This document shows positions 12,701-56,029 of a stretch of DNA of 64,000 nucleotides, piece after piece (positions within the stretch are counted from its first letter, which is position 1; every line of letters begins with the position of its first letter). Position numbers and translations under genes: made by a program. This DNA is from Anaerolineae bacterium. GTDB taxonomy: Bacteria; Chloroflexota; Anaerolineae; Caldilineales; Caldilineaceae. The DNA lies in assembly GCA_030432295.1 (NCBI GenBank), contig JAUIHI010000002.1, positions 62,001 through 126,000 on the forward strand, given 5' to 3'. Below the pieces are notes generated by a model. It saw only the letters and a list, made by a program, of their open reading frames with translations, was not told where the DNA came from and searched no databases.

Positions 12701-14127
12701 GGCATGCCATAGAAGAGGACGCCCCGCTGGGGGTTGGCCGGGGCCAGGGCCTGGCTGGCCCGGCGCATGGGTCCCAGGCGGCCCACAAAGCGCTCCGGCT
12801 CCGGGGGGAAGGCGATGCCCAGGCCGGTGCTGGGCAGCTCGTCCAGGCGGAAGGGACGGGCGGGCAGGGAGAGGTGCAGCTCCTGGGCGGCCCGGCCCAG
12901 CAGAATCGGCGTGGCCGGGGAGAGGGGGGGATAGGCGCTGGCCTGCGCGGCCAGGATTTCGGCCAGGGCCAGATGGAGCGCGCCGGGCAGGGCGCGGCCT
13001 TTGTCCAGCAGTTTGTCATAGAGGCTGCCCATCAGGTCGGCGGCAAAGGTGTCGACCACGGGGTAGCGCATGGCCAGGGCCGCACAGCCCAGGCGCTCGG
13101 CCAGTTGCTGGCCCAGGCTGGGCAGCACTGTGACCCGCACCTGCTCGCTGGCATCTTCCCGGGCCGGGGCGCTCTCTGGCCCGTCTGTCTCTGCCTGGCG
13201 GGTGGCGGGTTCGTCCAGACCGATGCGGGCACGCGCGGCTTGGTGGCTGGCCGCGCCGCTGTAGCAGGCGTTGAGGATGAGCAGACGCAGCCGCTCCTGG
13301 CCCAGTTCCAGCAGGTCGGCCAGTTCGCCGGCGCCGATGCGGTCCACACCGCCGCTGTCGTCCTCCAACACCAGCTCCCCTTGCAGGCCGTGGCCGGAAA
13401 TCTGCACCACATCCCAGCCCGGCGCTTCTTCCAGGGCGGCGCGCAGGCTTTGGCGGGTCGCCCCATATTGGAGCACCCGCAGGCTGATGGCTTTGCCCTG
13501 GCTCTGGGCCACCCGCACCAGTTTTTGCAGGTTGTGGCGTCCCCGGCGCAGGTTGAGGGGATTGGTTTCGTCGGGCAGGGTGAAGATGGCGAGGAGGCGG
13601 AGTTCGTCGGGAACCCCCTCCCGGCTGACCCCCACCCGGCCTCCCCCGCTGCGGGGGAGGGGCTGATGTCTCGTCTGCCCGCGATCGGCTCCTCCCCCAG
13701 TATGGGGGAGGTTGGGAGGGGGTGCGCTGTACACAAAGCGGATACCGGCGGCGGCGAAGCTGCGTCCGTCGGGCAGGCGGGCCAGTTCTAGGGGGCGCAG
13801 GAGAAGTCCGCTGGCCTCCGGGGGGACGGTGACGGTCACCGCTGTGGCGGGGGGGCGGCAGACCTGGGCCAGACGGGTACGCAGGTCGCCGAAGACGTGC
13901 AGGCCGATCCACGCGCCCAGTTCGTCCAGTTGCGCCGCGGGCAGGCGGATGGGGCTGTAGAAGTCGAGATAGTCGGCCAGGTCCACAAAGCCCCGGTACT
14001 CGAGGCTGCTGCGGTCCAGCCCCACTTCGTGGTCGGCCAGAAAGCGGTCGTTGGCGTCGTGGAGCGCCCAGCGCCAGTGGGCGTCGTCCCGGTAGTCGGT
14101 CAGGTGCAGAATCAGCGGTGCAGCCAT
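9775..14127 (-). CDS. CHAT-domain caspase-like protease fused to STAND NTPase and helical repeats
   Basis: 1450 residues. The CHAT (caspase-like) domain fills roughly residues 170-430, with catalytic-dyad candidates His in QISGHG and Cys in LNACYSGA. An NTPase follows, with Walker A GMPGAGKT and Walker B LLLVLDNLEN, then a long Ala/Leu-rich helical region of TPR character to the C-terminus. The ATG at 14127 has GGAG about 10 bases upstream. CHAT-STAND proteins are known or proposed signalling or cell-death proteases in multicellular and antiphage contexts; the trigger here is unknown. Three low-complexity, repeat-derived segments are inserted in frame (near residues 139-163, 808-834 and about 886-900). 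No partner gene is adjacent. Confidence 0.85.
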   Translation of the reverse strand: MAAPLILHLTDYRDDAHWRWALHDANDRFLADHEVGLDRSSLEYRGFVDLADYLDFYSPIRLPAAQLDELGAWIGLHVFGDLRTRLAQVCRPPATAVTVTVPPEASGLLLRPLELARLPDGRSFAAAGIRFVYSAPPPNLPHTGGGADRGQTRHQPLPRSGGGRVGVSREGVPDELRLLAIFTLPDETNPLNLRRGRHNLQKLVRVAQSQGKAISLRVLQYGATRQSLRAALEEAPGWDVVQISGHGLQGELVLEDDSGGVDRIGAGELADLLELGQERLRLLILNACYSGAASHQAARARIGLDEPATRQAETDGPESAPAREDASEQVRVTVLPSLGQQLAERLGCAALAMRYPVVDTFAADLMGSLYDKLLDKGRALPGALHLALAEILAAQASAYPPLSPATPILLGRAAQELHLSLPARPFRLDELPSTGLGIAFPPEPERFVGRLGPMRRASQALAPANPQRGVLFYGMPGAGKTACALELAHRHGGSHGEGRFVGYVWFKGPEIGMDVSRALFDFLFEMERQLDAPQLALTANLDDPATFRQRTLPRLRTVLEQNALLLVLDNLENLLTASDGWRDPLWGDTLATFLAQRGGSRVILTSRRLPAALAEHPALQREAIHALSFAESVLLAQELPNLAALFASEPRRRLLQRTLRIVQGHPKLLELADGLAADASALAGQVAVAERAAEREAEAGTGGRASQLDIFFAPAGGVPEGVALGESRQDEADFVVALRGWTGGVAARLSPAAGLLLPFLCGLEEADRQSAIVQANWGDFLKRIASPLPADSLESALVELAAVGLVEERTADRGRQTNDGEATAEGGEQTADGEAQTAQVIAQLQSLIAALPADADPAQTAALQSLLADPAALLAALQSQATDAPEPNSPFSIPNSAFHIHPGVAESVRAAADPAHLAAVDKELGDYFVAVSRRAMQNEMQGGSGTVAEAARRGAPYLMRGQRWEEATALLERLLHRDGSPATTSFALPLLRRIAEATVGTERELIDAGVLARGLMAAGRVDEAEQMERDRIRRCVAQGNYKLASSAAGSLLNLLRAAGRLEDALALAEEMAGYNRQAGLGPWTQLAVEGMRLQVLNALGRYDEVLAAVEEARPRMAALPLPGAAGHTGEEMVNLWNVREGLLDTGCFAAIRTERWQMALELNRDILELLRSIGAGDLKLAQKAFNDYGPLLALQRFDEARALLTACRRVFEAERAVKELGAVYSALADLADSTGDQAGAVAFEGTALRYKYQAGAPEDCAFSHGNIANYLERSGADAGLVLAHRLATAVIFYQTQSGQLPVSVRHLQSMNLSLTPPPFAAVVAAVEAVEGVRFGWLFGRLPRRAADGDGAIAAVWGLVQEEIQRRDAEAQGRREAFEPILQKIAAVAMGDDGPRQEIEELLPTLEEKGWRLSGPVARIWAGERDGEALTAGIDGNSAQLVGRVLEILAG
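11627..11706. repeat. Dispersed GACGGCGGACGG-type repeat inside the CHAT gene
   Basis: GTCTGCCGTCTG and TCGTCTGCCGTCCGCGGTC motifs inside the reading frame match the intergenic repeats near 16978-17065 and 19162-19290. It encodes a charged low-complexity stretch (DGEATAEGGEQTADGEAQ) that interrupts the helical repeat region without breaking the frame. Confidence 0.65.
13640..13711. repeat. Twin hairpin repeat inserted in frame in the CHAT domain
   Basis: Two near-identical palindromes, CCTCCCCCGCTGCGGGGGAGG-like and CCTCCCCCAGTATGGGGGAGG-like, lie 30 bases apart. They are translated as a Pro/Gly-rich loop (NLPHTGGGAD...LPRSGGG) just before the protease core strand. The palindromes make insertion of a mobile repeat more likely than natural loop evolution. 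Confidence 0.75.
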
Positions 14128-23882: not shown

Positions 23883-25364
23883 CTAAAGGCCCTTCTGCCA
23901 GGGGTTGCCGTAGAGATAATTACCGATTGCGTCCGGGTCGTTGGAAAAGTAAAATTCGCGCAGATAATTGGTTATCTCGTCCGCTGTCAGATACCCATTC
24001 CGATTCACATCCAGACGGCGAAAGTTGCTGAAGGCGTCCATCTCCACTCCTATTGCTACCGTCCACGCCGCATATTCCTGGACGGAATAGAGGCCGTCCT
24101 GATCCCTGTCAAAAAGCTGAAAATGAACCTGTGCGCGTTCGCTGATGACGCGCAGTGTATCCCGTCTACCCTCTGCTGTCTCCTGAGCTATCGCCTTCAT
24201 CAACTGTCCCCAGAAGGCGAGCCACCCCTCCAGAAAAATGCTGTTACATTCACAGTCAGGCACCAAACCACCTTCAATTCTGCTGTGGCTTTGAAGACTC
24301 CGCCACTGCAACTGCAGATCGCCCAATACCTGTTGGTAGAGGACGGAATGGGGCGGCAGAGAACGGAAGACGGCCCCTTTGTCCAGGTATCGTTGAAAAT
24401 CCTGCCACTCAATCCTGCCATCCCGATTGCAGTCAGTAATCTGGAACAGATAGCGCAACTTTTCGCGCTGAAGGATGCCCATGACCGCGCTCCTGAGCAG
24501 TCCAGGCGGTTCGGACAACTCGGCGGGCGGGCAGGCAAGCCGGGGAAGGAAAGGGAGTGGGCCAGAGGCCGTTGGCGCGACAGGGGTTGGTGATGTGGGC
24601 AGGGATTGACCCGCGCGAATGTGTGCCCAGAGAGTTCCCAAATCATCCCAGGAGTGGACGTTCAATTCAGGTTTCAACTGCTCTGCATACGCATAGTACT
24701 GGCGCAGGGCCGCGTCGGGTTGGCCTGTATCCATATAGAGCAATATCAACTGCTGGTGCGCCACCTCGTGGAACGGGCTGACTGAGAGTATCTTTTTCCA
24801 GCTCACAATCGCGTCCAGGGGACGTTGACGCCTGGTTTCGATTTCGCCCGTCTGCGCCAACACACCGATCAGTTGATTCCGCAAAGAATCTTCCTCCAGC
24901 GTCTGCCACATTTCAAACTCAGGACAGTCGGACAGGCTGAACCCCATCATAAAATTGTCCTGGTAAAGAGCGATCGCCTCCTGCAAATATTGGACACACG
25001 CCCCACAAGTCTCGGCCACGGTGTGATCGTGGGTGGCGGATAACGCCAGCAGTTTCTGAAAATGGCCTATATCGCAGTAGAAATCGTTTTGGATATTGAG
25101 CGAAATCTCCAGACGGTTGGTATGTAGCCAGGGTTTCAGGCTGGATCGGCGCAGAACGTAGAGTGTGCGACGCAGATTGGCCAATGCGGAGTCGCGTGTA
25201 TAGCCGGGCCAGAAAAGGCTGGCCAGGGTTTCCCGGCCATGGCCTTTCCCCGTAACAGCCAGATACACCAACAATCCTATCGCTTTTTTTTGCTTCAACA
25301 GAACAGGTTGTCCATTGACCTCGATCTGGGGATAGCCGAAAAGACGGAGTCTGAACCGTTCCAA
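23883..25364 (-). CDS. BTAD/SARP regulator fused to a calerythrin-like EF-hand domain (copy 1)
   Basis: 493 residues from a TTG start (MERFRLRLFGYPQIEVNG). Residues 1-95 look like an OmpR/SARP-type DNA-binding domain (LASLFWPGYTRDSALANLRRTLYVLR), and about 100-250 like the BTAD helical domain. After a Pro-rich linker comes an EF-hand domain: DCNRDGRIEWQD, DRDQDGLYSVQE and DVNRNGYLTADE fit the DxDxDG..E loop. The tail FYFSNDPDAIGNYLYGNPW matches the end of calerythrin-type bacterial calcium proteins. The fusion implies a cytoplasmic calcium-responsive transcription activator (inference). It is divergent from the NHL gene at 25797. RBS GGGAG lies upstream of the TTG. Confidence 0.85.
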   Translation of the reverse strand: MERFRLRLFGYPQIEVNGQPVLLKQKKAIGLLVYLAVTGKGHGRETLASLFWPGYTRDSALANLRRTLYVLRRSSLKPWLHTNRLEISLNIQNDFYCDIGHFQKLLALSATHDHTVAETCGACVQYLQEAIALYQDNFMMGFSLSDCPEFEMWQTLEEDSLRNQLIGVLAQTGEIETRRQRPLDAIVSWKKILSVSPFHEVAHQQLILLYMDTGQPDAALRQYYAYAEQLKPELNVHSWDDLGTLWAHIRAGQSLPTSPTPVAPTASGPLPFLPRLACPPAELSEPPGLLRSAVMGILQREKLRYLFQITDCNRDGRIEWQDFQRYLDKGAVFRSLPPHSVLYQQVLGDLQLQWRSLQSHSRIEGGLVPDCECNSIFLEGWLAFWGQLMKAIAQETAEGRRDTLRVISERAQVHFQLFDRDQDGLYSVQEYAAWTVAIGVEMDAFSNFRRLDVNRNGYLTADEITNYLREFYFSNDPDAIGNYLYGNPWQKGL

Positions 25365-25796
25365 AATTTTTCTCCCTTTAATCCCAATTAACTGTATTTG
25401 TTAAGACGAGGGTGGAAAAAGCTGGACGCAGATAAACGCAAAGGAACGCGGATTCTTGCCACTGAATCAGCGCCCCATTTCCTTTCCAGTATCCTACTGA
25501 CCAATACACCACTCTCAATTATCCGATCAATTGCTTCGTCCTATTATATATGTCGTACATAGCCAGCGTCCAGTGTGATTGTTTACATCGGCCCTGCGGG
25601 GAGAAAAAAAGGACGAAGAAAGGACGATTAAAAAGGAAAAAACAACGTTGTGGGGACGCAAATGGGCTAAACTGGGGTGTCTCATTGCTCAGTATTTTCA
25701 ATCCTATGGGCCAGAACATCCCACGCCTCTCTTTCCAGGGCAGGCCTGTGGATGTCTCTCGTCCTGTGCCCACCATATGGCTTCCGCGGAGAAAAT
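25365..25796. other. Divergent regulatory region, SARP-EF copy 1 / NHL copy 1
   Basis: About 430 bases without a gene. It includes an AT-rich stretch at 25540-25555 (ATTATATATGTCG), suited to a promoter, and a purine-rich stretch. Within the latter, GGACGAA (25611-25617) and GGACGAT (25622-25628) form a 7-mer direct repeat at the 11-base period used by SARP operators. A 6/7 match in a region this size is expected by chance about once in two regions, so this candidate is weak alone. A dispersed piece (GGACGCAGATAAACGC) lies near 25431. Confidence 0.4.
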
Positions 25797-28613
25797 ATGC
25801 AAATACGTACATCCACTCGTTTGACGCTGGCCTCCACGCGCGTACGCGTCCTCCTTGCCCTCGTCTGTGCCCTCCTTTTGGTCTCCGGTCTGCTTTCCCT
25901 CCCATCCTTTTGGATTGAAGAAGTTGATTCGAGCCTGGTTCACCACCCTGCCAAGACAAAGCGACAGCCAACAACCCAGAGTGCAGGATTTCTGGCTGTG
26001 CGCACTGCCCAGGCAGCCCAGTTGGAAGGCGAGATGGATTTTGTGGCCGATGGCATCTTCGGCCAGCCCGACTTCGCCACCGGAACAGCGCCCGCTGCGC
26101 CTACCGACACCAGCCTGAATCAGCCCAACGACATCTTTGTCTACGACCTGACCGGCCAGATTTTCATCGCCGACACCGCCCACAACCGGGTGCTGGGCTG
26201 GGAGAGTGTAGATTTCTACGAGAACGGCGATCCGGCTGACCTGGTGTTGGGCCAGCCCGACTTCACATCAACCGATGTGATCAGCCCACCCACCTGGGCC
26301 AGTTTGAATGGGCCTACGGGTGTCACCGTCGGCTTCGACGGTCTGGTCTACGTATCCGACACGGGCAACAACCGGGTACTCGTCTTCTTCCCCGTCAACT
26401 ATCCCGACGACGATTATTATCCCGGAGAATCTTACCCCATCTTCGAGAATGGGCAGGAGGCAGATTACGTTCTCGGTCAGCCAAATGAGACATCGGGCAC
26501 GGCCCTCCCCACTGGTCCCGCTACGCTGAACCGACCTATGGGACTCGCCACAGATGTCAACGACAATCTGGTAGTAGCGGACCACGGCAACAACCGGGTG
26601 CTGATCTACAAATGGAACGAGGCCGGTGCGATTGGCCCCTTTGCCAACTGGGTAGTCGGTCAGGGGTCAGGCGAAGAAAGCTTCTTCGCCAACGCCGCGC
26701 CGGACCCGCCCACCCAGAGTAGCCTGAACGGCCCCACGGGTATCGCCGCAGGCACCCTGGGCAATGAAATCTATGTGGCCGATACGGGCAACAACCGGAT
26801 TCTGCTCTTCACCGACGATCCCCTGGACGGCGAAGCCGATGCTCTGATCGGCCAGCCCGACTATGTGAGCAACACACCCAACAACGGCGGCGTCAGCGCC
26901 ACCAGTCTGGACAGACCCACCGGGCTAAAGATGGACGGGGGCAGCCGGCTCTTTGTCGCCGATGCGGGCAACCACCGGGTGCTGACCTTCGATCGGTCGG
27001 GCGCGCTGCGGGCCGCCGACGCGCTGGCCGACGGCGTTTTCGGCCAGCCTGACTTCATCAGCAACACACCCAACAACGGCGGCATCAGTGCCAGCAGCCT
27101 GAATACACCGGCTGGCATTGCCACCGATTCCCTCTATATGGATGTCTATATTGCCGACGCCGGTAACCACCGGGCGCTCCAATACGACCAGCCCCTGCCC
27201 AATCCCAAACCGGTCATCGCCGAACTGAACCCCGGCAGCGTGCGCGCTGGCAGGGACGACTTTACCCTGGACATCTGGGGGTCGGGCATCATCTCCGATA
27301 CAGTAATCGAGATCAACGGCGCTATCCGAGGGACCGGCAGCAATTTCCTGGGGTTGACTGAGGTGGAGATCGGTGCTTCGGAAGTCATGACCACTGGCCA
27401 ACTCACCGTCACTTTGCGCAACCCGGCCCCCGGCGGCGGTGTCTCTGCCCCATTGGTTCTGACAGTCTACACACCGACTGTTGGGGACGATCTGGCCGAC
27501 AGTGTACTCGGCCAGGAAGGTTTCACCACCGACTATGGCCCCTTTGCGCCTGTACTGGCCGACACGCTCTACGATCCGGCGGGCGCGGTAATCGATCCCG
27601 ACACCGGGCGTCTCTTCATCTCGGATCTGGGCAACGCTCGGGTGCTGAGCTGGCCCGGCAGTCAGGCATGGGGCGACGGCGCGGACGCTGATCTGGTCAT
27701 CGGCGCACCCGACTTCACCACCTATTTCTACGATAGCGAAGCGGGTCGTAACCTGATCCGGCCTGCCGGGCTGGCCCTGGACAGCGGGGGCAATCTCTAT
27801 GTGGCCGACGCCGACGCCGGTCTGGTTGCCATCTATGCCGCTCCCTTCAGCAACGGGATGCCCGCGAGTCTGCTCATCCAGGGGCTTTTCAATCCCCTGG
27901 CCCTGCATCTGGACAGCCAGGACAATCTCTATGTGGCCGATACCTTCAACCATCGGGTGCTCTTCTATGCGACACCCCTGACCAGCAAAGAGACCACGCC
28001 CGATCGGGTCTTTGGCCAGCCCGATATGGACGGCACAGATCCCAACGCTGGGGGCAGCATCAGCGCCGATACCCTCCACTACCCCAGTGGGCTGACGCTG
28101 GACGAGGACGACAATCTTTATGTCTCCGACAGCCAGAACCACCGGGTGCTGGTCTATCTGAACCCGGCCAACGGCGACACGACCGCGGATGTGGTCTTTG
28201 GCCAGCAGGGCGATTTTACCACTGGCGAAGCCAACCGTGGCGGCCTCAGCGCCGAGAGCCTGAACTATCCCTACGGGCTGGCAGTGGACGTCCAGGGCAG
28301 CCTGTGGGTGGCCGACAGCGACAACCACCGGGTGCTGCGCTACGACGCTCCCCTCAGCAGCGCTCTGGCCGCCGACCTGGTGATCGGCCAGAGCGGCTCC
28401 TTCACCCGCAGCCAACCCAATCAGGGAGAGCGCAGTACATCGGGCGCGGCCGCACGCAACCAGTCTACCCTACGCCAGCCCCTGGACGTCAGCCTGACCG
28501 CGGACGGCGATCTCTTTATCGTTGACGAGGGCAACAACCGGGTGCTGGGCTTCCAGAGCGTCCAGGCAGTGGATGTGGAGAAGAAGATATACTTGCCTGC
28601 TGTCGTCCGATAG
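25797..28613 (+). CDS. Secreted NHL-repeat beta-propeller protein with central IPT/TIG domain (cassette A)
   Basis: 938 residues. The N-terminal basic region and hydrophobic helix (LLALVCALLLVSGLL) serve as a signal or anchor. Twelve NHL-type repeats are marked by (D/G)(N/H)xRVL, six before and six after an Ig-like IPT/TIG region at about residues 465-560 (PVIAELNPGS...LRNPAPGGGVSAP). The C-terminus is IYLPAVVR. The start at 25797 follows CGGAGAAAAT and places the hydrophobic segment properly; the longer frame upstream is not supported. Two six-bladed propellers outside the cell would fit. It is divergent from SARP-EF and upstream of the precursors, with no evident catalytic residues. Confidence 0.88.
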   Translation: MQIRTSTRLTLASTRVRVLLALVCALLLVSGLLSLPSFWIEEVDSSLVHHPAKTKRQPTTQSAGFLAVRTAQAAQLEGEMDFVADGIFGQPDFATGTAPAAPTDTSLNQPNDIFVYDLTGQIFIADTAHNRVLGWESVDFYENGDPADLVLGQPDFTSTDVISPPTWASLNGPTGVTVGFDGLVYVSDTGNNRVLVFFPVNYPDDDYYPGESYPIFENGQEADYVLGQPNETSGTALPTGPATLNRPMGLATDVNDNLVVADHGNNRVLIYKWNEAGAIGPFANWVVGQGSGEESFFANAAPDPPTQSSLNGPTGIAAGTLGNEIYVADTGNNRILLFTDDPLDGEADALIGQPDYVSNTPNNGGVSATSLDRPTGLKMDGGSRLFVADAGNHRVLTFDRSGALRAADALADGVFGQPDFISNTPNNGGISASSLNTPAGIATDSLYMDVYIADAGNHRALQYDQPLPNPKPVIAELNPGSVRAGRDDFTLDIWGSGIISDTVIEINGAIRGTGSNFLGLTEVEIGASEVMTTGQLTVTLRNPAPGGGVSAPLVLTVYTPTVGDDLADSVLGQEGFTTDYGPFAPVLADTLYDPAGAVIDPDTGRLFISDLGNARVLSWPGSQAWGDGADADLVIGAPDFTTYFYDSEAGRNLIRPAGLALDSGGNLYVADADAGLVAIYAAPFSNGMPASLLIQGLFNPLALHLDSQDNLYVADTFNHRVLFYATPLTSKETTPDRVFGQPDMDGTDPNAGGSISADTLHYPSGLTLDEDDNLYVSDSQNHRVLVYLNPANGDTTADVVFGQQGDFTTGEANRGGLSAESLNYPYGLAVDVQGSLWVADSDNHRVLRYDAPLSSALAADLVIGQSGSFTRSQPNQGERSTSGAAARNQSTLRQPLDVSLTADGDLFIVDEGNNRVLGFQSVQAVDVEKKIYLPAVVR

Positions 28614-28809: not shown

Positions 28810-29124
28810 ATGAACCGACAAGCGATCGAAACCCGGGTGATGGAGAAGGCCAGCGCTGACCCGACCTTCCGCCGTCGCCTACTGGACGACCCCAAAGCTG
28901 CGTTGGCCGACTTCCTGGGCGTGTCCCTGCCCGAGGCCGTCACCATTGCGGTCCTCGAAGAGCAGCCGGGTGAGCACTATCTGGTGTTGCCCCCGGCTCC
29001 GCCGGACCTGGACGATCTGGAGCTGGCCCTGGTCGGCGGCGGACGCACGTTGCGGCCGAGTGCTTCGAAAAAAAATATCAAGATCGAAGGAGGTACACCC
29101 AGGTTCCGTCTCGGCGGTTGCTGA
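28810..29124 (+). CDS. NHLP-type RiPP precursor peptide 1 (cassette A)
   Basis: 104 residues. The leader resembles the nitrile-hydratase alpha-subunit-like (NHLP/proteusin) family: DPTFRRRLLDDPKAALADFL, then VLEEQPGEHYLVLPPAPP, ending LELALVGGG. The core after GGG begins RTLRP, is Lys/Arg-rich and ends GGC. It has one Cys (the last residue) and several Ser/Thr, as needed for one thioether ring. It is expected to be a LanM substrate with leader removal at the double Gly by a C39 peptidase. RBS AAAGGAG lies 12 bases upstream. No nitrile hydratase metal site is present. Confidence 0.88.
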   Translation: MNRQAIETRVMEKASADPTFRRRLLDDPKAALADFLGVSLPEAVTIAVLEEQPGEHYLVLPPAPPDLDDLELALVGGGRTLRPSASKKNIKIEGGTPRFRLGGC

Positions 29125-29171
29125 CAGGCGTCACTTGAATTCATAACCGCTTAGCCAAGGACAATCATACG

Positions 29172-29519
29172 ATGACAAAACTGATCAAATCTTCACAAGA
29201 GATGGAAGCCCGTATCATCGAAGCGGCTAACCAAAATCCGTCATTCCGCCGTCGCCTGCTGGACGACCCCAAAACCGCGTTGGCAGACTTCCTGGGCGTG
29301 TCCCTGCCCGAGGCCGTCACCATCACTGTGCTGGAAGAGCAGCCGGGCCAGCACTATCTGGTGTTGCCCCCGTCCCCGCCCAGCCTGGACGCCCTGCCCC
29401 TGGACGACCTGGAACTGGCTCTGGTCGGCGGTGGACGCACCTTACGCCCTGGTGTAGTGAATTGTAAGTGTTGTGAGTCATCTAACCCACGACGAAATGT
29501 AAGCCGAAGCTCCTGCTGA
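29172..29519 (+). CDS. NHLP-type RiPP precursor peptide 2 (cassette A)
   Basis: 115 residues. The leader is nearly identical to precursor 3 (SSQEMEARIIEAANQNP, RRRLLDDPKTALADFLGV) and ends LALVGGG. The core begins RTLRPG, contains a CKCC cluster plus a terminal SSC, and has several Ser residues: four Cys, so up to four thioethers. The core is Arg-rich. It follows precursor 1 by 47 bases with a CAAGGAC leader. Confidence 0.88.
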   Translation: MTKLIKSSQEMEARIIEAANQNPSFRRRLLDDPKTALADFLGVSLPEAVTITVLEEQPGQHYLVLPPSPPSLDALPLDDLELALVGGGRTLRPGVVNCKCCESSNPRRNVSRSSC

Positions 29520-29574
29520 GCGATTGCACCCTACCCGATACTGACGACCGTTGGACGGCAAGGACAAAGATACT

Positions 29575-29934
29575 ATGACACTATTCGTTAAATCTTCGCA
29601 AGAGATGAAAGCCCGCATCATCAAAGCGGCGAACCAAAATCCGACCTTCCGCCATCGGCTTTTGGACGACCCCAAAGGGGCTCTGGCCGATGTTCTGGGC
29701 GTGTCCCTGCCCGCGGCCGTCACCATCACCGTGCTGGAGGAGCAACCGGGCCAGCACTATCTGGTGTTGCCCCCGGCCCCGCCAAACCTGGACGCCCTGC
29801 CCCTGGCCGATCTGGAACTGGCCTTGGTCGGCGGCGGTCGCACCCTACGGCCGGGCAGCGCTTCACCGGGGGGTGGGGTGAATCCTAGACGGCGGGATTT
29901 GCCATCTACGTCTGCACGCCAAAGTGCCTGTTGA
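29575..29934 (+). CDS. NHLP-type RiPP precursor peptide 3 (cassette A)
   Basis: 119 residues. The start at 29575 (MTLFVKSSQEMKARI) aligns with precursor 2; an in-frame upstream start at 29551 is less likely. The leader ends LALVGGG and the core begins RTLRPG, then SASPGGG, with an Arg-rich middle and terminal QSAC, a single Cys. It lies 19 bases before the GNAT gene. Confidence 0.88.
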   Translation: MTLFVKSSQEMKARIIKAANQNPTFRHRLLDDPKGALADVLGVSLPAAVTITVLEEQPGQHYLVLPPAPPNLDALPLADLELALVGGGRTLRPGSASPGGGVNPRRRDLPSTSARQSAC

Positions 29935-29953
29935 TGCGATTGTACCCAACCCT

Positions 29954-30849
29954 ATGCTGACCATCCAGCGGCTGGACGCCCAATCCCTACGCCCCTTTGT
30001 CCTGCTGGTGCAGCCAGGTCTACGCCGGTCGATCCTGGAAGGACAAGGGGACCCGGATCAGATTGTGCTGGGCGCGCTCTTTTTGGGTCAGCCGGTGGGC
30101 GTGGCCGTACTTCACCTGAACCAACCAACTGTCGGGCTGACCGACCTCTACGTGCTGCCCGACTACCGCAGGACAGGTATCGGCTCTACGCTGCTGGCTG
30201 CCGCGGAAGAAGAAGCCCGGCGATCAGGCGTCGGCACACTGCATACCCTCTACCGGGCCACCGAGCATACCCCTCCCTTTGAGCGTCTGCTGGCCACACA
30301 GGGCTGGGAGACCCCGCGCCTCCAGTCAAAAGTCTACTGGACCACTTGCAGCGCGGGCTATGACGGTTGGGCACAGCGCTACCGCTTCCGCCGGCCCTAC
30401 GAGCCGGTCCTGTGGGCAGAAATAACCGAGGCCGAGCGCCAGGCCATTGCCCGGCGAGGCGAAAACGGCTGGTATCCGCCTACGCTTGATCCCTTCCAGC
30501 GACCCGACGACGATTGGGACCCGGAGACCAGCCTGGGTTTGCGCTACAAAGGCGAGGTGGTGGGCTGGCTGCTCACCCTGCGCGAGGCCCCGGACCAGAT
30601 TCGGGTGGAAATCATGTTCGTGGATCCGCCTCTTCAGCGACTGGGCCGGGGCATTCTGCTCATCTGCGAGATGATCCGCCGCTATTGCAACGACGGCGAC
30701 TACGCGGGGGCTGCAACGAGCACTGCTACTGGCGGGTCAGCCCAGAAAACGAGGGGATGATCCGCTGGTCCCAACGCTCCTTTCCGGGCCGCTTCACAGA
30801 TGAGTACGAGGAGTGGTACAGCGAAAAAGCACTTTGCCCCAAGCCATAG
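29954..30849 (+). CDS. Tandem-GNAT acyltransferase, cassette A, with a one-base frameshift
   Basis: The start at 29954 (MLTIQRLDAQS) matches the paralogue at 36435. The first GNAT half carries an acyl-CoA motif in LPDYRRTGIGSTLLAAAEEEA, and the second is around DPPLQRLGRGILLICEMIRR. The uninterrupted frame stops at 30760. Compared with the paralogue, one G is missing from the G-run at 30706-30710; adding it restores NEHCYWRV...EEWYSEK to 30849. This is either a true frameshift or a homopolymer sequencing error. Its role is probably modification of precursor-derived peptides, as for GNATs in known RiPP clusters (family knowledge). It is convergent with SARP-EF copy 2. Confidence 0.8.
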
Positions 30850-30855: not shown

Positions 30856-32328
30856 CTATCTCTCCTTCGACCAGGGGTTGCCATAGAGATAGTTGCCCAC
30901 CGCGTCCGGGTCGTTGGAGAAGTGAAATTGGCGCAGATAGCCGCGTATCTCATCCAGTGTCAGATAGCCGTCTCGATCTCTGTCCAGACGGCGGAAGTTG
31001 CTGAGGGCGTCCATTTCGCCCCCCCACGCTGTCATCCATTTGGCATATTCCTGGGCCGACAAGAGGCCGTCCCGATCCCCATCAAAGAGTTGAAAGTGGA
31101 TACGCACGCTATCGTCCAGACTCTGGATGGCGGCGCGCTCGCTCCCAATCGTCTGTTGGGCCGTCGTCTGCATTACTTCGCTCCAGAAAGCCAACCAGCC
31201 GTCCAGCGTAACCGATAGTTCCCCCACATTGTTCTGTGCTCTCTCCCCCGCACTTTTGATCCCTGCCCACCAATTCTGAATATCGACCAGTGCTTGACGA
31301 TAGATAGACGATTCGACGGAAACCGGGCCGATGGCCGCGGCCCGGTCCAGATAGCGCTGAAAATCGCTCCACTGAATCTTCCCATCCCCATCCTGATCGA
31401 TGATGCAAAAAAAGTGACACTGTTTCTGACGTTGCAGCAGCCCCAGGGCACTAATCGCCGCTGGCCCGGTTGCTTCCCCAGAGAACGGCGGCGGGTCTGG
31501 CAATGGCGGGGCGCTGACCGGAATGACTGGGCCAGTTGGATGTCCATTCTCCGGCGGCGCGGCGGGGGAGTGGCCGGTTTGGATGCCTTCAAAGAAGCGA
31601 ATCATCTGGCGGGAAGGCAGGGCCGCCAGTTCCTCGTGCAAATCGGCCACGTAGTCCTGGTAGCGGCGCAGGGCCAGGCTGCGTTGCCCGTTGGCCACAT
31701 AGAGCGCCATCACCTGCCGAATTCCTTCCTCGTACAGTGGGTTGACCCCCAGAACACCCTTCCAGCGTTCGATGGCTGAGGCCGGGTCGCCCAGACGGCT
31801 CTCGGCCATAGCCACCTGTTCCATTGCACTCGCCCACTCCTGGCGCAGAATGTCCCCGTTCAAACTTTGCCAGAGATCAAACTCCGGGCAATCTGGCAGG
31901 GAAAAACCGGCCAAAAAATCGTTCCGGTAGAGGGCAAGGGCCGCATACTGGCGCGCCGTACAGTCGGGGCAGACGCTTTCGCTGCTGTGGGTGTGGCCTT
32001 CTGGCACAAGCAAAAGAGAGCGAAATTGGGCCACGTCACAGGCGTCCGCCTGTTCTGTCGTCAGGCTGACCTGAAAGCGATCGACCGCCAGGCCAAAATC
32101 GGCCAGGCCCGTACGCAGGGCATAGAGGGTGCGGCGCAGGTGGGCCAGGGCCGCGGCGGGCGCGTAGTCGGGCCAGAAGAGCGTGGCCAGGGCTTCCCGG
32201 CTCTGCTTCTTGCCGGAAACCGCCAGATAGGCAAGCAGTGCCAGTCCCTTGCGGCGACTGAGGGCGATAGGTTCTTTGTCAATCTCAATACGTGGATAGC
32301 CAAAGAGGAAAATGCGGTAGTGGCTCAA
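30856..32328 (-). CDS. BTAD/SARP regulator fused to a calerythrin-like EF-hand domain (copy 2)
   Basis: 490 residues from a TTG start (MSHYRIFLFGYPRIEIDKEP). It has the same layout as copy 1: winged-helix DNA-binding region with ATLFWPDYAPAAALAHLRRTLYALR, BTAD region to about residue 250, Pro-rich linker, then EF hands DQDGDGKIQWSD, DGDRDGLLSAQE and DRDRDGYLTLDE. The tail is FHFSNDPDAVGNYLYGNPW. The loops are closer to canonical than in copy 1. It is divergent from the NHL gene of cassette B. Both copies lack the NTPase and TPR parts of AfsR. Confidence 0.85.
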   Translation of the reverse strand: MSHYRIFLFGYPRIEIDKEPIALSRRKGLALLAYLAVSGKKQSREALATLFWPDYAPAAALAHLRRTLYALRTGLADFGLAVDRFQVSLTTEQADACDVAQFRSLLLVPEGHTHSSESVCPDCTARQYAALALYRNDFLAGFSLPDCPEFDLWQSLNGDILRQEWASAMEQVAMAESRLGDPASAIERWKGVLGVNPLYEEGIRQVMALYVANGQRSLALRRYQDYVADLHEELAALPSRQMIRFFEGIQTGHSPAAPPENGHPTGPVIPVSAPPLPDPPPFSGEATGPAAISALGLLQRQKQCHFFCIIDQDGDGKIQWSDFQRYLDRAAAIGPVSVESSIYRQALVDIQNWWAGIKSAGERAQNNVGELSVTLDGWLAFWSEVMQTTAQQTIGSERAAIQSLDDSVRIHFQLFDGDRDGLLSAQEYAKWMTAWGGEMDALSNFRRLDRDRDGYLTLDEIRGYLRQFHFSNDPDAVGNYLYGNPWSKER

Positions 32329-32669
32329 TAATCTCTACTTTTGAGGAAGGGGGCGAAATCGGGCCGACGCTGAAAGTATAGCACCGGGGGAGGAAGCGTC
32401 CAACTAGCCATTCTCCTGGCAACGGAACTGCCACGCCCCAGCCACGCAAAAGGTACGTGGCAACCGGCCCAAAGCGACGTTACGGCAACGGCGGCGTGGG
32501 ATACTCAAGCGATCCCATTTGTACTATCACCTACTGATATGGCTTCACTGCAAAAAAACTAAAAAACTCGGTTTTTTAGTACCGGTCCACTTTTAGGAAT
32601 CCGGGCGATCTACACGAAAAACTCGGTTTTTTGCAGTAGACCCACTCTACCAGAATCGCCGGAGAAAGT
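32329..32669. other. Divergent regulatory region, SARP-EF copy 2 / NHL copy 2
   Basis: No gene. CCACGCC (32431-32437) and CCACGCA (32442-32448) form a 7-mer direct repeat with an 11-base period, as in SARP operators, but no -10 box sits 8 bases away. Match quality is 6/7, so chance is possible. A family-C repeat occupies 32549-32637, and the NHL gene has GGAGAAAG before its ATG. Confidence 0.35.
32549..32637. repeat. Family-C repeat (AAAAACTCGGTTTTT)
   Basis: Two copies of AAAAACTCGGTTTTTT lie 54 bases apart, enclosed by complementary ACTGCAAAAAA / TTTTTTGCAGT ends. The same AAAAACTCGGTTTTT motif, with its complement at similar spacing, occurs inside the LanM reading frame at 59599-59666. 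Confidence 0.8.
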
Positions 32670-35519
32670 ATGACGACGCTAATTTCAAGGCGGGCCTTTG
32701 CCGTCCATCTACTGCGCAACGCATTTCTTGGCTTTGCCCTGCTTTTTGTTCTCTTTCTGGGCGTCCCCCACCAGTCAGCGCCTTCCCCAACCGAAAAGTC
32801 GTCGTTTGTGGGCAAGACAGGCCGTCTGGTCTTAGGCAAGCTCGCCACCCTCTCGGCAGCCCGCCAGGCCCACGCGGCTGATCTGGACGGAGAACTGGAC
32901 AATGTGGCCGATCTGGTCTACGGCCAGAACGATTTCGCGTCCAAGGGCCTGCCTGCCTCGGCCTCAGCCGTCAACCAGAACCAGGCCACGGACCTCTTCG
33001 TCTATGACACGGGCCAGCTATTTGTGGCCGACACCGAACACAACCGGGTGCTGATCTGGGACAGTGTGGATACCTATTCGATCGGCGACCCCGCGGATAT
33101 TGTGCTGGGCCAGCCGGACTTCATCACCACCGACGCACCCAGTCCACCCAGAGCCGACAGTATGAACCAGCCATCGGGCCTTACCGTCGGCTACGATGGC
33201 ATTCTCTACGTCTCCGACACAGGCAACCACCGGGTGCTGGTCTTCGTCCCCTGGAACATCTGCGACTTCTACGAATACTACGACGACATCTGGTGCATTG
33301 AGGCGGATGGCTACGAGTTTTCCGACTACTTTGTCCCTGTCTTCACCACGTGGATGAACGCGGACTACGCCCTGGGCCAGCCCGACCTGACCACAGGAAC
33401 CCTGCGCGCCGCCGCCCAGAACAGCCTCAACCACCCGATGGGCGTCGTCACCGATGTCAACGACAATCTGGTGGTGGCGGACCGGGACAACAACCGGGTG
33501 CTCATCTACGAATGGCCCCTGAGCGACGGCCAAGACGCGGTTTGGATTGTGGGCCAGACCGCCGACAACGGAAAAGTCGGCAACTTCACCTCCACCGAAG
33601 CACCCAATCCGCCGACCAGGCTCAGCCTGAATGGTCCAACTTCGGTGGCTGCGGGCACTCTGGGAAACGAACTCTATGTGGCCGACACAGGCAACAATCG
33701 GGTACTGGTCTTCACCGATGACCCCATCGATGGCTTTGCCGACGCGGTGATCGGCCAGCCGGACTATATCAGCAAGGGGGCTGGCGTAGGAGAAACCCGG
33801 CTGGACGGCCCTACCGGTCTCAAAATGGATGCGGGCAACCGGCTCTTTGTGGCCGACCGCAACAACAATCGGGTGCTCTTCTTCGATCAGGTCCAGCCTG
33901 ATGGCAATGCGGATGGAGTGATCGGCCAGCCAGATTTCGCCAGCAATGGCGCAAACAACGGCGGCATCGGCCCGGCCACCCTTTCTGCCCCCACAGGCAT
34001 CGCCACCGACGCCTATTTTATGGATGTCTACATTGCCGACCGGGGCAACAACCGGGTGTTGCAGTACAGTCAGCCCCTGCAAAACCCCAGCCCCGTCATC
34101 AGCGAACTGAATCCGGGCACTGTGCTGGCGGGCAGCGATGGCTTCACACTGGATGTCTGGGGTTCTGGCATCATTCAGGGGACAGTCGTCGAAATCAATG
34201 GCAGCGCCCGCATCACCGGCACTAAATTCCTGGGCATTTCTGAGGTGAAGATTGCCGCCAGTGAACTGGAAACCAGCGGCGAAATCACCATCACCCTGCG
34301 CAATCCTCTGCCCGGTGGCGGCGTCTCCGCACCCTACACTCTTTCTGTCTATGAGCCGGTTGTCGGCGACGATCAGGCGGACAGTGTACTGGGGCAAAAA
34401 GGCTTCACCACCGATGATGGCGCCTTTGTCCATCTGGCTGCCAACACCCTCTTTGAGCCGGGCGGTGTGGTGGTCGATCCGACCAGCGGGCGGATATTCG
34501 TCTCGGACCAGGGCAACAGCCGTATTCTCAGTTGGCCCAGCACCGCGGCCCAGGCCAACGGCAAGAACGCGGATTTGGTCATCGGCCAGCCCGATTTCCA
34601 ATCGTCGGGCGCGGGAGCGAATCCACTGCATAACATCCTGGCCCCCGCGGGGTTGGCCCTGGACAGCGCGGGCAATCTCTACGCGGCCGATGCCCAGTTG
34701 GATGTGGTGCAGGTCTACAGCCCGCCCTTCAGCAACGGTATCGCAGCCTCCGCCACTATCACTGGCTTCTCCAATCCCCTGGCAGTAGCTGTGGACAGTC
34801 TAAACAATCTTTATGTGACTGATTCCTTGAATAACCGGGTACTCTTCTACGAACAACCCCTGAGCGGCGATCTGTTGCCTGACCGGGTCTACGGCCAGGC
34901 GGACTTGAGTAGCACCGATCCGAATCGGGGTGGGGCCATCAGCGCCGACACCCTCCACTTCCCAGCGGGGCTGGCCCTGGATAGCAGCGGCAACCTCTAC
35001 ATCTCCGACGCTTCCAACCACCGGGTGCTGGTCTATCTGGCCGGCACGGACGGGGACACGGGCGCGGATGCGGGCGCGGACGTAGTCTTCGGCCAGGCGG
35101 GGGATTTTACCAGCGGCATAGCCAATAATGGCGGGGTGAGCGCCCAGAGTCTCAACTTCCCCTTTGGCCTGCTCATCGACGCCGAGGGCAGCCTCTACGT
35201 GACCGACAGCGACAACAACCGGCTGCTGCGCTACGACGCCCCCCTGACCAGCGACCGGGTGGCGGATGAAGTCTACGGCCAGGGCGGTTCCTTCACCCAG
35301 AACCCGGCCAACCGCAGCAATCTGGCCCCCACGGATGGGGCCCGCATAAATGGGGGGGGACGCAGCCAGGCCAGCCTGCGTGAGCCAAGCGCGATCGCCC
35401 TCTCCCCCGACGGCAGCCTGTATGTGGCGGATTATCGTAACAACCGGGTGCTGGCTTTCCAGACGGATCGCCGGGGTGTGGCCCGCTGGGGTATCTTCCT
35501 GCCCAGTGTGGCGCGGTGA
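32670..35519 (+). CDS. Secreted NHL-repeat beta-propeller protein with central IPT/TIG domain (cassette B)
   Basis: 949 residues. The N-terminal membrane or signal segment is FLGFALLFVLFLGVPH. As in the cassette A protein, twelve NHL-type repeats (NNRVL, NHRVL, NSRIL variants) lie in two blocks of six around an IPT/TIG region (PVISELNPGT...LRNPLPGGGVSAP). The C-terminus is WGIFLPSVAR. One blade has an extra acidic/aromatic loop near residues 190-215 (CDFYEYYDDIWC). RBS GGAGAAAG precedes the ATG. Confidence 0.88.
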   Translation: MTTLISRRAFAVHLLRNAFLGFALLFVLFLGVPHQSAPSPTEKSSFVGKTGRLVLGKLATLSAARQAHAADLDGELDNVADLVYGQNDFASKGLPASASAVNQNQATDLFVYDTGQLFVADTEHNRVLIWDSVDTYSIGDPADIVLGQPDFITTDAPSPPRADSMNQPSGLTVGYDGILYVSDTGNHRVLVFVPWNICDFYEYYDDIWCIEADGYEFSDYFVPVFTTWMNADYALGQPDLTTGTLRAAAQNSLNHPMGVVTDVNDNLVVADRDNNRVLIYEWPLSDGQDAVWIVGQTADNGKVGNFTSTEAPNPPTRLSLNGPTSVAAGTLGNELYVADTGNNRVLVFTDDPIDGFADAVIGQPDYISKGAGVGETRLDGPTGLKMDAGNRLFVADRNNNRVLFFDQVQPDGNADGVIGQPDFASNGANNGGIGPATLSAPTGIATDAYFMDVYIADRGNNRVLQYSQPLQNPSPVISELNPGTVLAGSDGFTLDVWGSGIIQGTVVEINGSARITGTKFLGISEVKIAASELETSGEITITLRNPLPGGGVSAPYTLSVYEPVVGDDQADSVLGQKGFTTDDGAFVHLAANTLFEPGGVVVDPTSGRIFVSDQGNSRILSWPSTAAQANGKNADLVIGQPDFQSSGAGANPLHNILAPAGLALDSAGNLYAADAQLDVVQVYSPPFSNGIAASATITGFSNPLAVAVDSLNNLYVTDSLNNRVLFYEQPLSGDLLPDRVYGQADLSSTDPNRGGAISADTLHFPAGLALDSSGNLYISDASNHRVLVYLAGTDGDTGADAGADVVFGQAGDFTSGIANNGGVSAQSLNFPFGLLIDAEGSLYVTDSDNNRLLRYDAPLTSDRVADEVYGQGGSFTQNPANRSNLAPTDGARINGGGRSQASLREPSAIALSPDGSLYVADYRNNRVLAFQTDRRGVARWGIFLPSVAR

Positions 35520-35658: not shown

Positions 35659-35994
35659 ATGAGTACCAATGCCCTTTCCAAAGCGGAGATCGAAGCCCGC
35701 CTGATCCAACAGGCCGCCCAGGACCCCAGCTTCCGCCAACGCCTGCTGGATGACCCCAAAGCCGCCATCGCCGACTTCCTGGGCGTGGCCCTGCCGCCCG
35801 CGATGACCCTCACTGTGCTGGAAGAAACGCCGGGCCAGCACTATCTGGTCCTGCCCCCGGCTGCGCCAAAGTTGGATGCCCTGCCCCTGGATGAACTGGA
35901 CCTGGCCCTGGTCGGCGGCGGGCGTACCATGCGGCCGGGCCAGAGATTAGGGACTGTAGAGGGAAGGGCGAGCATGCGTCGTAGTGCCTGTTGA
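35659..35994 (+). CDS. NHLP-type RiPP precursor peptide 4 (cassette B)
   Basis: 111 residues. The leader has DPSFRQRLLDDPKAAIADFL, LEETPGQHYLVLPPAAP and LDLALVGGG. The core begins RTMRPG, is short (about 23 residues), and ends RRSAC with one Cys at the end. RBS AGAAGGAAG is well placed. Confidence 0.88.
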   Translation: MSTNALSKAEIEARLIQQAAQDPSFRQRLLDDPKAAIADFLGVALPPAMTLTVLEETPGQHYLVLPPAAPKLDALPLDELDLALVGGGRTMRPGQRLGTVEGRASMRRSAC

Positions 35995-36058
35995 CCCAGG
36001 CAGGAGTCCGATTAGATCGTAGATTGATGCCAATCACAGTTTGGAGATCCACCAAGCA

Positions 36059-36415
36059 ATGAGCATTCATACACAAACAAAACAAGAGATCGAGAGCCGC
36101 GTTCTGCGACGAGCTGCCCAAGACCCCACCTTCCGCCAGCGCCTGCTGGATGACCCCAAAGGGGTGGTTTCCACATTCCTGGGCGTGGCCCTGCCGCCGG
36201 GGATGACCCTCACTGTCCTGGAAGAAACGCCGGGGCAGCACTATCTGGTGCTACCTCCGGCCATGCCCGATCTGGACGCCCTGCCTTTGGGCGATCTGGA
36301 CTTAGCCCTGGTCGGCGGCGGGCGCACCATGCGGCCCCTTAGTAACACCTGTACAATTGGTATTGATTGTCCCGTGAATTCTGATACCCGGGTTGCTGGT
36401 CGCGGTGCGTGCTGA
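36059..36415 (+). CDS. NHLP-type RiPP precursor peptide 5 (cassette B)
   Basis: 118 residues from the ATG at 36059 (MSIHTQTKQEIESR); the longer frame would use TTG. The leader has DPTFRQRLLDDPKGVVSTFL and ends LDLALVGGG. The core begins RTMRPLS, contains TCTIGIDC and ends GRGAC, giving three Cys and several Thr/Ser: up to three rings. It is followed after 19 bases by the cassette B GNAT. Confidence 0.88.
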   Translation: MSIHTQTKQEIESRVLRRAAQDPTFRQRLLDDPKGVVSTFLGVALPPGMTLTVLEETPGQHYLVLPPAMPDLDALPLGDLDLALVGGGRTMRPLSNTCTIGIDCPVNSDTRVAGRGAC

Positions 36416-36434
36416 AGCCAAAAGAGCGGGAAGT

Positions 36435-37325
36435 ATGCTGACAATTCAAATTCTGGATAAGGTGTCCGTACTGCCCTACCTTCTGATGTTGGCCCCCGGC
36501 CTGCGCCATCCTTTGCTGGGGGGCGAAGACGATGCGGCGCAGATCGTCCTGGGCGCAACCTTCTGGGGACAGCCGGCCGGTGTGGCCATCGCCTATCGGG
36601 GCGCAGACTCTGCCCGGCTGCTGGATATCTACGTCCTGCCCAGCTACCGCCAGGCGGGCATCGGCCGCGCCCTGCTGGCGGCAGTGGAGGAGGCGTGCCG
36701 TCTAGCGGGTAAATCCCGGGTCCAGGCCCTTTATTGCCCGAATGAGCAGACACCCGCCTTCGAGGCACTTCTGGTCAAAGAGGGGTGGGCCGCGCCTCTT
36801 GTGCGCTCCCGGGTCTATTGGACCAGTTGCAGCGCGGGCTACGACGGGTGGGCCCAGCGCTACCGCTTCCGTGCGCCCTACGAGCCGGTTCTGTGGGCAG
36901 AAATAAGCGAGGCCGAGCGCCAGGTCATCGCCCGGCGGGGCGAAGGCGGCTGGTATCCTCCCCATCTCGATCCATTGACCCGTCCAACCGGCGATTGGGA
37001 CCCGAAGACCAGCCTGGGGTTGCGCTATAAAGGGGAGGTGGTGGGCTGGCTGCTCACTTTGCGCGAGGCCCCGGACCAGATTCGGGTGGAAATCATGTTC
37101 GTCGATCCCCCGCTGCAACGACTGGGCCGGGGGATTTTGTTGATCTGCGAGATGATCCGACGCTATTGCAACGACGGCGAGTATGCCGGAGGCTGCAACG
37201 AGCACTGCTACTGGCGGGTGGACGCAGCCAATGAGGGGATGATCCGCTGGTCCCAGCGCTCCTTTCCGGGCCGCTTCACAGATGAGTACGAGGAGTGGTA
37301 CACTGAGAAGATTCTCGACCCGTAA
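36435..37325 (+). CDS. Tandem-GNAT acyltransferase, cassette B (intact)
   Basis: 296 residues. The first half has an acyl-CoA motif in LPSYRQAGIGRALLAAVEEA. The second half shows SLGLRYKGEVVGWLLTLRE and DPPLQRLGRGILLICE. The tail, NEHCYWRV, RWSQRSFPGRF and EEWYTEKILDP, defines the intact C-terminus missing from cassette A's frame. RBS GCGGGAAG precedes the ATG; an earlier in-frame start would overlap precursor 5. GNATs in RiPP clusters can attach acyl groups to the peptide; the substrate here is not known. Confidence 0.88.
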   Translation: MLTIQILDKVSVLPYLLMLAPGLRHPLLGGEDDAAQIVLGATFWGQPAGVAIAYRGADSARLLDIYVLPSYRQAGIGRALLAAVEEACRLAGKSRVQALYCPNEQTPAFEALLVKEGWAAPLVRSRVYWTSCSAGYDGWAQRYRFRAPYEPVLWAEISEAERQVIARRGEGGWYPPHLDPLTRPTGDWDPKTSLGLRYKGEVVGWLLTLREAPDQIRVEIMFVDPPLQRLGRGILLICEMIRRYCNDGEYAGGCNEHCYWRVDAANEGMIRWSQRSFPGRFTDEYEEWYTEKILDP

Positions 37326-41369: not shown

Positions 41370-41387
41370 CATAACGCATCCATAACG
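41370..41387. promoter_or_regulatory. Candidate SARP operator: exact 7-mer direct repeat with 11-base period
   Basis: CATAACGCATCCATAACG: heptamer CATAACG, 4-base spacer, identical heptamer. SARP/BTAD activators of Streptomyces bind heptameric direct repeats with this period (established knowledge). An exact match at this spacing has roughly a 2 percent chance in a region this size. A -10-like box at the preferred 8 bases is not evident on either strand. It lies between the AfsR-like gene and the beta-helix gene. Confidence 0.45.
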
Positions 41388-51200: not shown

Positions 51201-51466
51201 TCGGCCATCTCCCGGTTGCCAAAAATCCGGCGAATTTGGTAGAGGGCCTGGCGAAAGTTCTCCCGGGTTTTGTCCAGGCTCTCTTCGGGCCAGAGCAGGG
51301 TGGCCAGTAGTTCCCGCCCGTGGGCAACATCCCCGTGGCGCATGAGATAGACGAGGAGCGCCCCGGCCTTGCTCATCTTCAGGGTAACAGGACGTCCGCC
51401 AAATCGAATCTGGAGGCTGCCGAGGCTTTGAACAGAGAGCAGCGCCATATCTTCGTCTGTATTCAT
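48263..51466 (-). CDS. AfsR-like transcriptional regulator: BTAD/SARP + STAND NTPase + TPR (second copy)
   Basis: 1067 residues. The DNA-binding region (LATLLWPEESLDKTRENFRQALYQIRR) comes first, then BTAD to about residue 240. The NTPase has Walker A GPGGIGKT and Walker B LLLLDNWEHL. TPR-like helices follow (LGLGNIDTEEGLFVASIEYYQRAM). It is divergent from a small protein and the cassette C NHL gene, with strong SARP-type operators in between, so it is the likely controller of cassette C and the modification genes (inference). Confidence 0.9.
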   Translation of the reverse strand: MNTDEDMALLSVQSLGSLQIRFGGRPVTLKMSKAGALLVYLMRHGDVAHGRELLATLLWPEESLDKTRENFRQALYQIRRIFGNREMADRYLTVTWETVQFRSDSPYTLDANLFEQRVSEGAWAAGLNLYAGEFLATFYPTDAQEMGEWQLITREHLHQLAVYACTQLARQLEKRDPARAADVARRLLVLEPWAEEGHRTLMRWWAAQRQPAEALSQYQRCITILADEMGIAPATETTALYEQIRDGRLAPLDPLTHNLPAQLTPLVGREQELSTLQRLLADTDPDAYADTDTNTNNRLITLVGPGGIGKTKLMVALGWAAVHNPPQVPFTHIYFVSLAELEANGEGHLPERITAHLLTTLGIHPSPTASIRTLLAERWGDDPVLLLLDNWEHLKSAASLLSTWLMEMPYLHIVTTSREPLGLYAETLFRVGGLDTGLSQADPIQKGPSQAGRLFVQSARRAKPRFQWDEKTAPLIRRICDAVDGHPLALEMAASWLQGLTLAEVAEGVEEGLDLLTSAHADMPARQRDMRHILAQSWQKLTGDQQRMLAQLSLFRQPFGPNRAYAVAGASRLHLALVVAHFWLRRGDDGRYHFHELLRHFAREQLIAQPNLHQQARRAYIQEHLHYLQSQRDLLEENPSSDLFADLHLRHADMEQAWNWAVGEEWLAEIIATVGPLSWFYAGMGLLSEGIRLLGQTIRHLRQLPATPLRQRALAHLLIEQASLRNLQVNCALVPEAMAEAIELARDLSDRRLLSQAYTECGVALRRVGQFEEGRDFLRKGLALAEMEQDWGQAALIYLGLGNIDTEEGLFVASIEYYQRAMNWYEALNRPVLRNNVRHNLALSLTHLGQYDRARRLHQQNLASWRTLQRRQDLAMTLEGLGYVALTQNRFRLAELHLGAALRIYTEIEDLDGGAYAHLYLGHRAVAQGLLSNAATHYRAMIGARQRLGHAHLLNQGWAGLAEVAWRRGELHEALLFVERCWPAILAGQVQGEEPMPVYLTSYHILSAIGDDRATVVLEKAISHLNREILALDDDELARQAFMHAVPSHRALLAAAAERGFQGIIQK

Positions 51467-51667
51467 TCTTTAATGCTGATGAAAAATGGCTTTGTATACA
51501 CGGATCAGAGGGAAGACGGATTCAATCTGCGAAAATCTGCGTTATCTGTGTTCTGATTTTCGTCTTTATCGGTGTCAGCCGGTCGTGTTGCCTGTTCAGT
51601 AATCCGTACCTGAGTCCATTGCGAGAAGGTCAATTTTACAGCAAGAGACGCAAGGAACGCAGAGAAG

Positions 51668-51968: not shown

Positions 51969-51974
51969 CTCTTC

Positions 51975-52181: not shown

Positions 52182-52224
52182 ACAGGTGGATTTTATGATA
52201 GACCACAGCAGGTGTCACAGCCAC

Positions 52225-52258: not shown

Positions 52259-52319
52259 AAACATCACTTTTTCAGAAGAGTGGAACTGTCCATTCCTCAA
52301 CCAAGGAGGAACCAAAAAC

Positions 52320-56013: not shown

Positions 56014-56029
56014 GGCTGGGGAGGTATAG

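Follow-up and report, generated by a model that had tools for sequence, protein, structure and literature searches.

A SARP-type DNA-binding/BTAD core is joined in one polypeptide chain to a complete calerythrin-type EF-hand protein in the 64,000-nucleotide stretch of DNA analyzed here, referred to as the window. The fusion, SARP-EF1, is accompanied by a second full-length copy, SARP-EF2, and both genes are divergent from a similar cassette composed of a secreted NHL-repeat propeller, RiPP precursors with NHLP leaders and a tandem GNAT protein (Table 1). The initial annotation had proposed a direct fusion of SARP/BTAD to a calerythrin-type EF-hand domain, which the single 493-residue frame, the Pfam matches and the calexcitin match bear out, and had overlooked both SARP-EF2 and the adjoining RiPP cassettes. 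With somewhat better than even chances, the fusion would be a cluster-situated, calcium-modulated activator of the SARP type, with a complete calerythrin/SCP-type EF-hand protein where larger SARPs have an NTPase-TPR sensor.

Architecture of SARP-EF1

The SARP-EF1 frame runs uninterrupted for 493 codons on the minus strand, from a TTG start at 25364 to the stop at 23883, and a ribosome-binding-like stretch, AAAGGGAG, is located close upstream of the TTG. Pfam assigned the BTAD to residues 97-249 of SARP-EF1 (E 2.7e-12) and also recognized it in SARP-EF2 (E 5.2e-16); in both fusions it comes directly after the DNA-binding domain, as in the SARP family. Trans_reg_C gave no match at the N-terminus of either protein, so the Pfam search suggested in the initial annotation, which succeeds for BTAD and EF-hand, would have missed the DNA-binding domain. 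That domain was identified by profile and by fold. A profile of the SARP N-terminal half, built from the four SARPs of the window, aligned across both domains of EmbR from profile position 4 (E 2.5e-14, the closest solved relative by this measure) and across both domains of AfsR (E 3.4e-9 to 1.4e-7). The predicted structure of SARP-EF1 is usable for residues 1 to ~230 (pLDDT ~80), and Foldseek matched its N-terminal half to AfsR in the RNA-polymerase transcription complex (E 1.7e-10, TM by target 0.75) and also to EmbR. By profile alignment and fold match, the N-terminal half of SARP-EF1 begins with a SARP-type (OmpR-type) DNA-binding domain, followed by the BTAD as first read. The BTADs of both fusions contain an HxH...CxxC motif, near window positions 25020 and 31990. 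It was dropped as a part of the calcium story because it is general, being present in 15 of the 28 SARP loci examined in this genome and its relatives; it may represent a zinc site specific to this subfamily of SARPs.

Among PDB sequences, the C-terminal 200 residues of SARP-EF1 matched calexcitin end to end (residues 297-487, E 7.6e-13), with further matches to juvenile hormone diol kinase, obelin and calerythrin. Pfam found EF-hand_7 (E 3.9e-13) and EF-hand_1 (E 4.4e-11) in SARP-EF1 and three EF-hands in SARP-EF2. EF1, EF3 and EF4 have canonical, complete ligand sets in both fusions and EF2 is degenerate in both; the three readable loops reported earlier are these, and the two peculiarities mentioned with them, a loop ending in Asp (EF1, position 12) and a loop with Asn at position 5 (EF4), are seen in SARP-EF1. 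The side-chain calcium-ligand positions are oxygen residues in 15 of 15 cases in both copies, against 49 of the 200 positions across the EF domain, an enrichment (hypergeometric 1e-10) that is only rough since loops are expected to be acidic. Unfused family members from genomes of the same phylum mostly start with ML..LQ.RKL..LF and end in S.DP...GN...G or similar, and the fused domain aligns with these bacterial calerythrin-like proteins from their start through their tail; therefore the whole protein was captured. The tail of SARP-EF1, already read as that of calerythrin, matches the one retained by full-length unfused homologues. With no more than two sequences in its alignment, the EF half was predicted too weakly for use in both structure models (pLDDT mostly below 50).

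The likeness to calerythrin, calexcitin and sarcoplasmic calcium-binding proteins comprises the whole-length match, three usable loops, the degenerate EF2 and the same tail, but those proteins are free-standing, with ~180-200 residues, whereas the version in the window is fused behind a DNA-binding activator. Calerythrin has four EF motifs and three Ca2+ sites (PMC10574481), and the loop sequences suggest that the fused domain could likewise bind up to three Ca2+, at EF1, EF3 and EF4.

Table 1. Features of the window, with their positions, strands and the basis of each assignment
Feature	Position	Strand	Basis
SARP-EF1 (SARP DNA-binding, BTAD, Pro-rich linker, calerythrin-type EF-hand)	23883-25364	-	ORF, Pfam, PDB sequence matches
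SARP-type DNA-binding domain of SARP-EF1, residues ~1-96	25077-25364	-	Profile against EmbR/AfsR, Foldseek
BTAD of SARP-EF1, residues ~97-252	24609-25076	-	Pfam BTAD, motif count
Pro-rich linker of SARP-EF1, residues ~253-293	24486-24608	-	Alignment
Complete calerythrin/calexcitin-type EF-hand domain, residues ~294-493	23886-24485	-	Calexcitin match, unfused homologues
EF1 loop DCNRDGRIEWQD of SARP-EF1	24399-24434	-	Sequence, alignment
EF3 loop DRDQDGLYSVQE of SARP-EF1	24075-24110	-	Sequence, alignment
EF4 loop DVNRNGYLTADE of SARP-EF1	23976-24011	-	Sequence, alignment
Family tail SNDPDAIGNYLYGNP of SARP-EF1	23901-23945	-	Matched by tails of unfused homologues
Candidate SARP-EF1 operator AAAGGACGA-AG-AAAGGACGA, 9-bp direct repeat, 11-bp pitch	25608-25627	+	
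Secreted NHL-repeat propeller 1 (ATG 25797 is the more likely start)	25677-28613	+	Pfam NHL, E 2.7e-64
Three NHLP-leader RiPP precursors (28810-29124, 29172-29519, 29551-29934), cores GRTLRP...C	28810-29934	+	NCBIfam TIGR03793 above cut-off
Tandem GNAT 1	29924-30849	+	Pfam, sequence
SARP-EF2, second full-length fusion, 490 aa, loops DQDGDGKIQWSD, DGDRDGLLSAQE, DRDRDGYLTLDE	30856-32328	-	Own-genome search, alignment
Candidate SARP-EF2 operator GCAACGG-aact-GCCACGC-ccca-GCCACGC, 11-bp pitch	32419-32447	+	
Secreted NHL-repeat propeller 2	32670-35519	+	ORF; homologous to propeller 1 and to the G424/G419 propellers
Two NHLP-leader RiPP precursors (35659-35994, 36041-36415)	35659-36415	+	TIGR03793 above cut-off
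Tandem GNAT 2 (likely start 36435)	36393-37325	+	Pfam Acetyltransf_1, two stretches
Direct repeat at 11-bp pitch beside SARP regulator	41370-41387		
Third-cassette regulator, ordinary SARP-LAL (BTAD, NTPase, TPR)	48263-51466	-	Pfam
SARP-LAL operator GTTCACGATTAGTTCACG; second copy 51936-51953	51666-51684	+	Repeat search, G424 conservation
Third cassette: NHL propeller 52320-55133, two NHLP-like precursors 55263-56013, tandem GNAT 56030-56908	52320-61807	+	
Third cassette, continued: prolyl oligopeptidase 57024-58961, LanM lanthipeptide synthetase 58958-61807		+	

The second copy and the history of the fusion

SARP-EF2 is 44% identical to SARP-EF1, and the identity is distributed unevenly: 51% in the EF half, the most conserved part between the copies, 45% in the DNA-binding domain, 36% in the BTAD and 34% in the linker. 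The best-conserved segment outside the loops is the C-terminal tail (73%). In trees the two copies are sisters in the SARP half (29 rows, support 100/98) and in the EF half (15 rows, 100/100). Since the SARP halves pair together and the EF halves pair together, a simple history would be that of one fusion, later duplicated, diverged and kept. The E-values, together with the second full-length fusion, exclude a chance origin of the domain matches in SARP-EF1.

An assembly error joining two genes, named in the initial annotation as what could refute the fusion, would agree with the failure to find a fusion orthologue in other species. The objection is removed by the 44%-identical full-length paralogue on the same contig, both of whose halves are sister to those of SARP-EF1; assembly or frame artefacts are ruled out on these grounds. 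Moreover, GC3 is similar across the SARP/EF junction, showing no break, and no internal start is kept at the EF domain. The probability of an assembly or annotation artefact is accordingly negligible. An internal ATG start that would yield the EF half by itself is not supported either, as the Met that precedes this half in SARP-EF1 is not kept in SARP-EF2.

The distribution of the fusion was explored by searching genomes of the phylum (400), of relatives (200), of the class (396) and of the whole order (46) with a profile made from both EF halves; these overlapping sets amount to at least 745 genomes. The abundance of SARP-LAL regulators suggests that the phylum may be Chloroflexota. Among these, including all 46 of the order, no SARP-EF fusion was found outside the genome of the window. 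Unfused calerythrin-like proteins occur in nine other genomes, one of them from the same family, and the six other genomes of the genus contain neither the fusion nor an unfused calerythrin-like protein. When 84,980 species genomes were scanned twice by pattern, an approach that reaches close relatives only, no close relative of the fusion appeared; viral contigs contained no fusion orthologue, and plasmids carried SARP halves only. In line with the earlier remark that no described example is known, no description of a SARP combining BTAD and EF-hand was found in open-licence publications, nor anything relevant on bacterial EF-hand transcription factors.

Adjoining cassettes and candidate operators

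TIGR03793 scored above cut-off in all five precursors tested, and each GNAT protein contains two Acetyltransf_1 stretches. A third cassette of the window is divergent from an ordinary SARP-LAL regulator, the whole locus extending from 48263 to 61807. In G424, a genome from another genus of the same family, a regulator 77% identical to the SARP-LAL of the window adjoins the same cassette type; related cassettes are present in G424 and in G419, a genome of that same other genus, without SARP-EF, and some of the cassette copies in genus g239 lack a regulator next to them.

The seven precursors of NHLP-leader type in the window (28810-29934, 35659-36415 and 55263-56013) share the core GRT[LM]RP and a C-terminal Cys, and precursors with the same core start exist in G424 and G419. 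NHLP precursors with tandem GNATs, sometimes with LanM, are a signature of side-chain-acylated RiPPs, for instance selidamides and nostolysamides (PMC13060382). Taken with the tandem GNATs and the one LanM, the seven precursors of the three cassettes look like a family of acylated, lanthipeptide-like RiPPs, and by this likeness the product would be a side-chain-acylated RiPP. Selidamides and nostolysamides are GNAT-acylated RiPPs with NHLP or Nif11 leaders and often LanM; the NHLP precursors and tandem GNATs (PMC13060382), and LanM in the third cassette, have their counterparts there, while the GRT[LM]RP...C cores, a secreted NHL propeller per cassette and the SARP regulators set the window apart.

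Several side observations concern the same region. Relative to copy 2, tandem GNAT 1 changes frame near 30710, close to its 3' end, either through a genuine lesion or because a G run was misread in sequencing. Five large proteins, several of them evidently secreted, with C-termini at 28613, 35519, 44726, 48028 and 55133, finish in [YF]LP and four further residues (IYLPAVVR, IFLPSVAR, IYLPLVEQ, IYLPMTQR and LFLPSMAR); the propellers of G424 and G419 end alike, and this type of ending may be a sorting signal. Elsewhere in the window, positions 9775-14127 encode a 1450-residue protein in which an NTPase (NB-ARC/AAA) domain lies C-terminal to a CHAT protease-like domain.

The sites bound by SARPs consist of direct repeats with a spacing of 11 or 22 bp (PMC10936776; PMC5930380). 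Each of the four SARP regulator gaps of the window contains a direct repeat of 7-9 bp at an exact 11-bp pitch, with shuffle p of 0.023 and 0.010 for the fusion gaps and 0.013 and 0.077 for the other two; as background, 7 bp at this pitch is reached in 4% of 420-bp pieces of the window. The approach is validated for SARP-LAL, because two copies of its repeat, GTTCACGATTAGTTCACG, lie in its own gap, with no further copy in the genome at up to two mismatches, and because a near-identical site, GTTCACAATTAGTTCACG, is conserved in the G424 gap beside the 77% identical regulator. Across the 6.7-Mb genome, the candidate SARP-EF1 operator has no second exact match. The candidates of the two fusions are defined by spacing only: 11-bp repeats lie in both gaps, and neither has a clear -10 element beside it at the canonical distance of 8 bp. 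The SARP-EF1 and SARP-EF2 candidates differ, and no significant operator common to both fusions was found. That the fusions act on these local candidate operators is supported but not proven.

The weak promoter elements beside these sites, as well as the g239 cassettes that have no regulator next to them, would fit fusions that are real but exert no control on the adjacent RiPP cassettes. Against it, two fusions and one SARP-LAL are each divergent from the same cassette type, SARP-spaced repeats exist in each gap, and the SARP-LAL site is found nowhere else in the genome, so that absence of cassette control seems distinctly improbable.

A possible calcium input to the SARP core

In the favoured reading of a calcium-modulated activator, the SARP core would bind the direct repeats of 11-bp pitch between the divergent genes and recruit RNA polymerase to the cassette of NHL propeller, RiPP precursors and GNAT. 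The EF domain, carried on the Pro-rich linker, would bind Ca2+ at its three complete loops, and its folding state would alter the activity of the core. The SARP domain of AfsR is kept inhibited by the C-terminal NTPase and TPR domains until ATP binding sets it free (PMC10936776). Since those domains inhibit until their ligand binds, Ca2+ would most likely relieve an inhibition of the SARP core. Both the allosteric switching by calcium and its sign are proposed by analogy.

The main rival to calcium sensing is a structural role, in which the EF domain, permanently loaded with Ca2+ or Mg2+, would stabilize the regulator or its dimer. Members of the SCP family such as calerythrin are described as buffers, not switches, and because a review treats calerythrin itself as a buffer, its fold need not imply sensing (PMC10574481). 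EF1 ends in Asp, and the retention of the ligands in both copies is something that structural binding would also need. An Asp at position 12 of an EF loop can favour Mg2+. However, other SARPs of the genome work without such a domain, and the EF domain sits where larger SARPs carry their regulatory domains; a structural role is thus considered unlikely, though less so than the other alternatives.

EF-hand proteins often act through partner binding, and the domain might instead sense a different metal, or else a partner protein or peptide, for example a product of the cassette, calcium then being a constant cofactor. The regulators adjoin peptide precursors, and the tail is the part best kept between the copies outside the loops. 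But unfused homologues keep the tail too, which makes it a trait of the family rather than of the fusion, and no partner is indicated. Sensing of another ligand is therefore rated as rather improbable.

The fusions resemble AfsR and other SARPs in the DNA-binding plus BTAD core, by profile and fold, in the adjoining biosynthetic cassette and in the candidate direct repeats of 11-bp pitch, and differ from them in that the C-terminal sensor is an EF-hand protein. A review divides SARPs into small, medium (NTPase), large (NTPase-TPR) and SARP-LAL classes, none of which has an EF-hand architecture (PMC10972967). In EmbR of Mycobacterium tuberculosis, too, a single small sensor domain lies C-terminal to a SARP core, but its sensor is a phosphopeptide-binding (FHA) domain and not a calcium-binding one.

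Repeats of 11-bp pitch mark the SARP gaps of this genome, and scanning for them might predict the operators of many SARPs. Opinions still differ on whether calcium serves bacteria as a regulatory signal, and components that connect it to a promoter are few. The chances are even that the fusion is a one-component activator that reads cytosolic calcium directly and ties a lipidated-peptide cassette to it, in two paralogues with different operators. With a promoter-binding activator and a calcium module in one chain, the debated role of calcium becomes testable with a single purified protein and a single DNA fragment. A new sensor type would be added to the SARP family, where C-terminal domains control the best-studied large member, and calcium may be a culture signal for silent peptide clusters.
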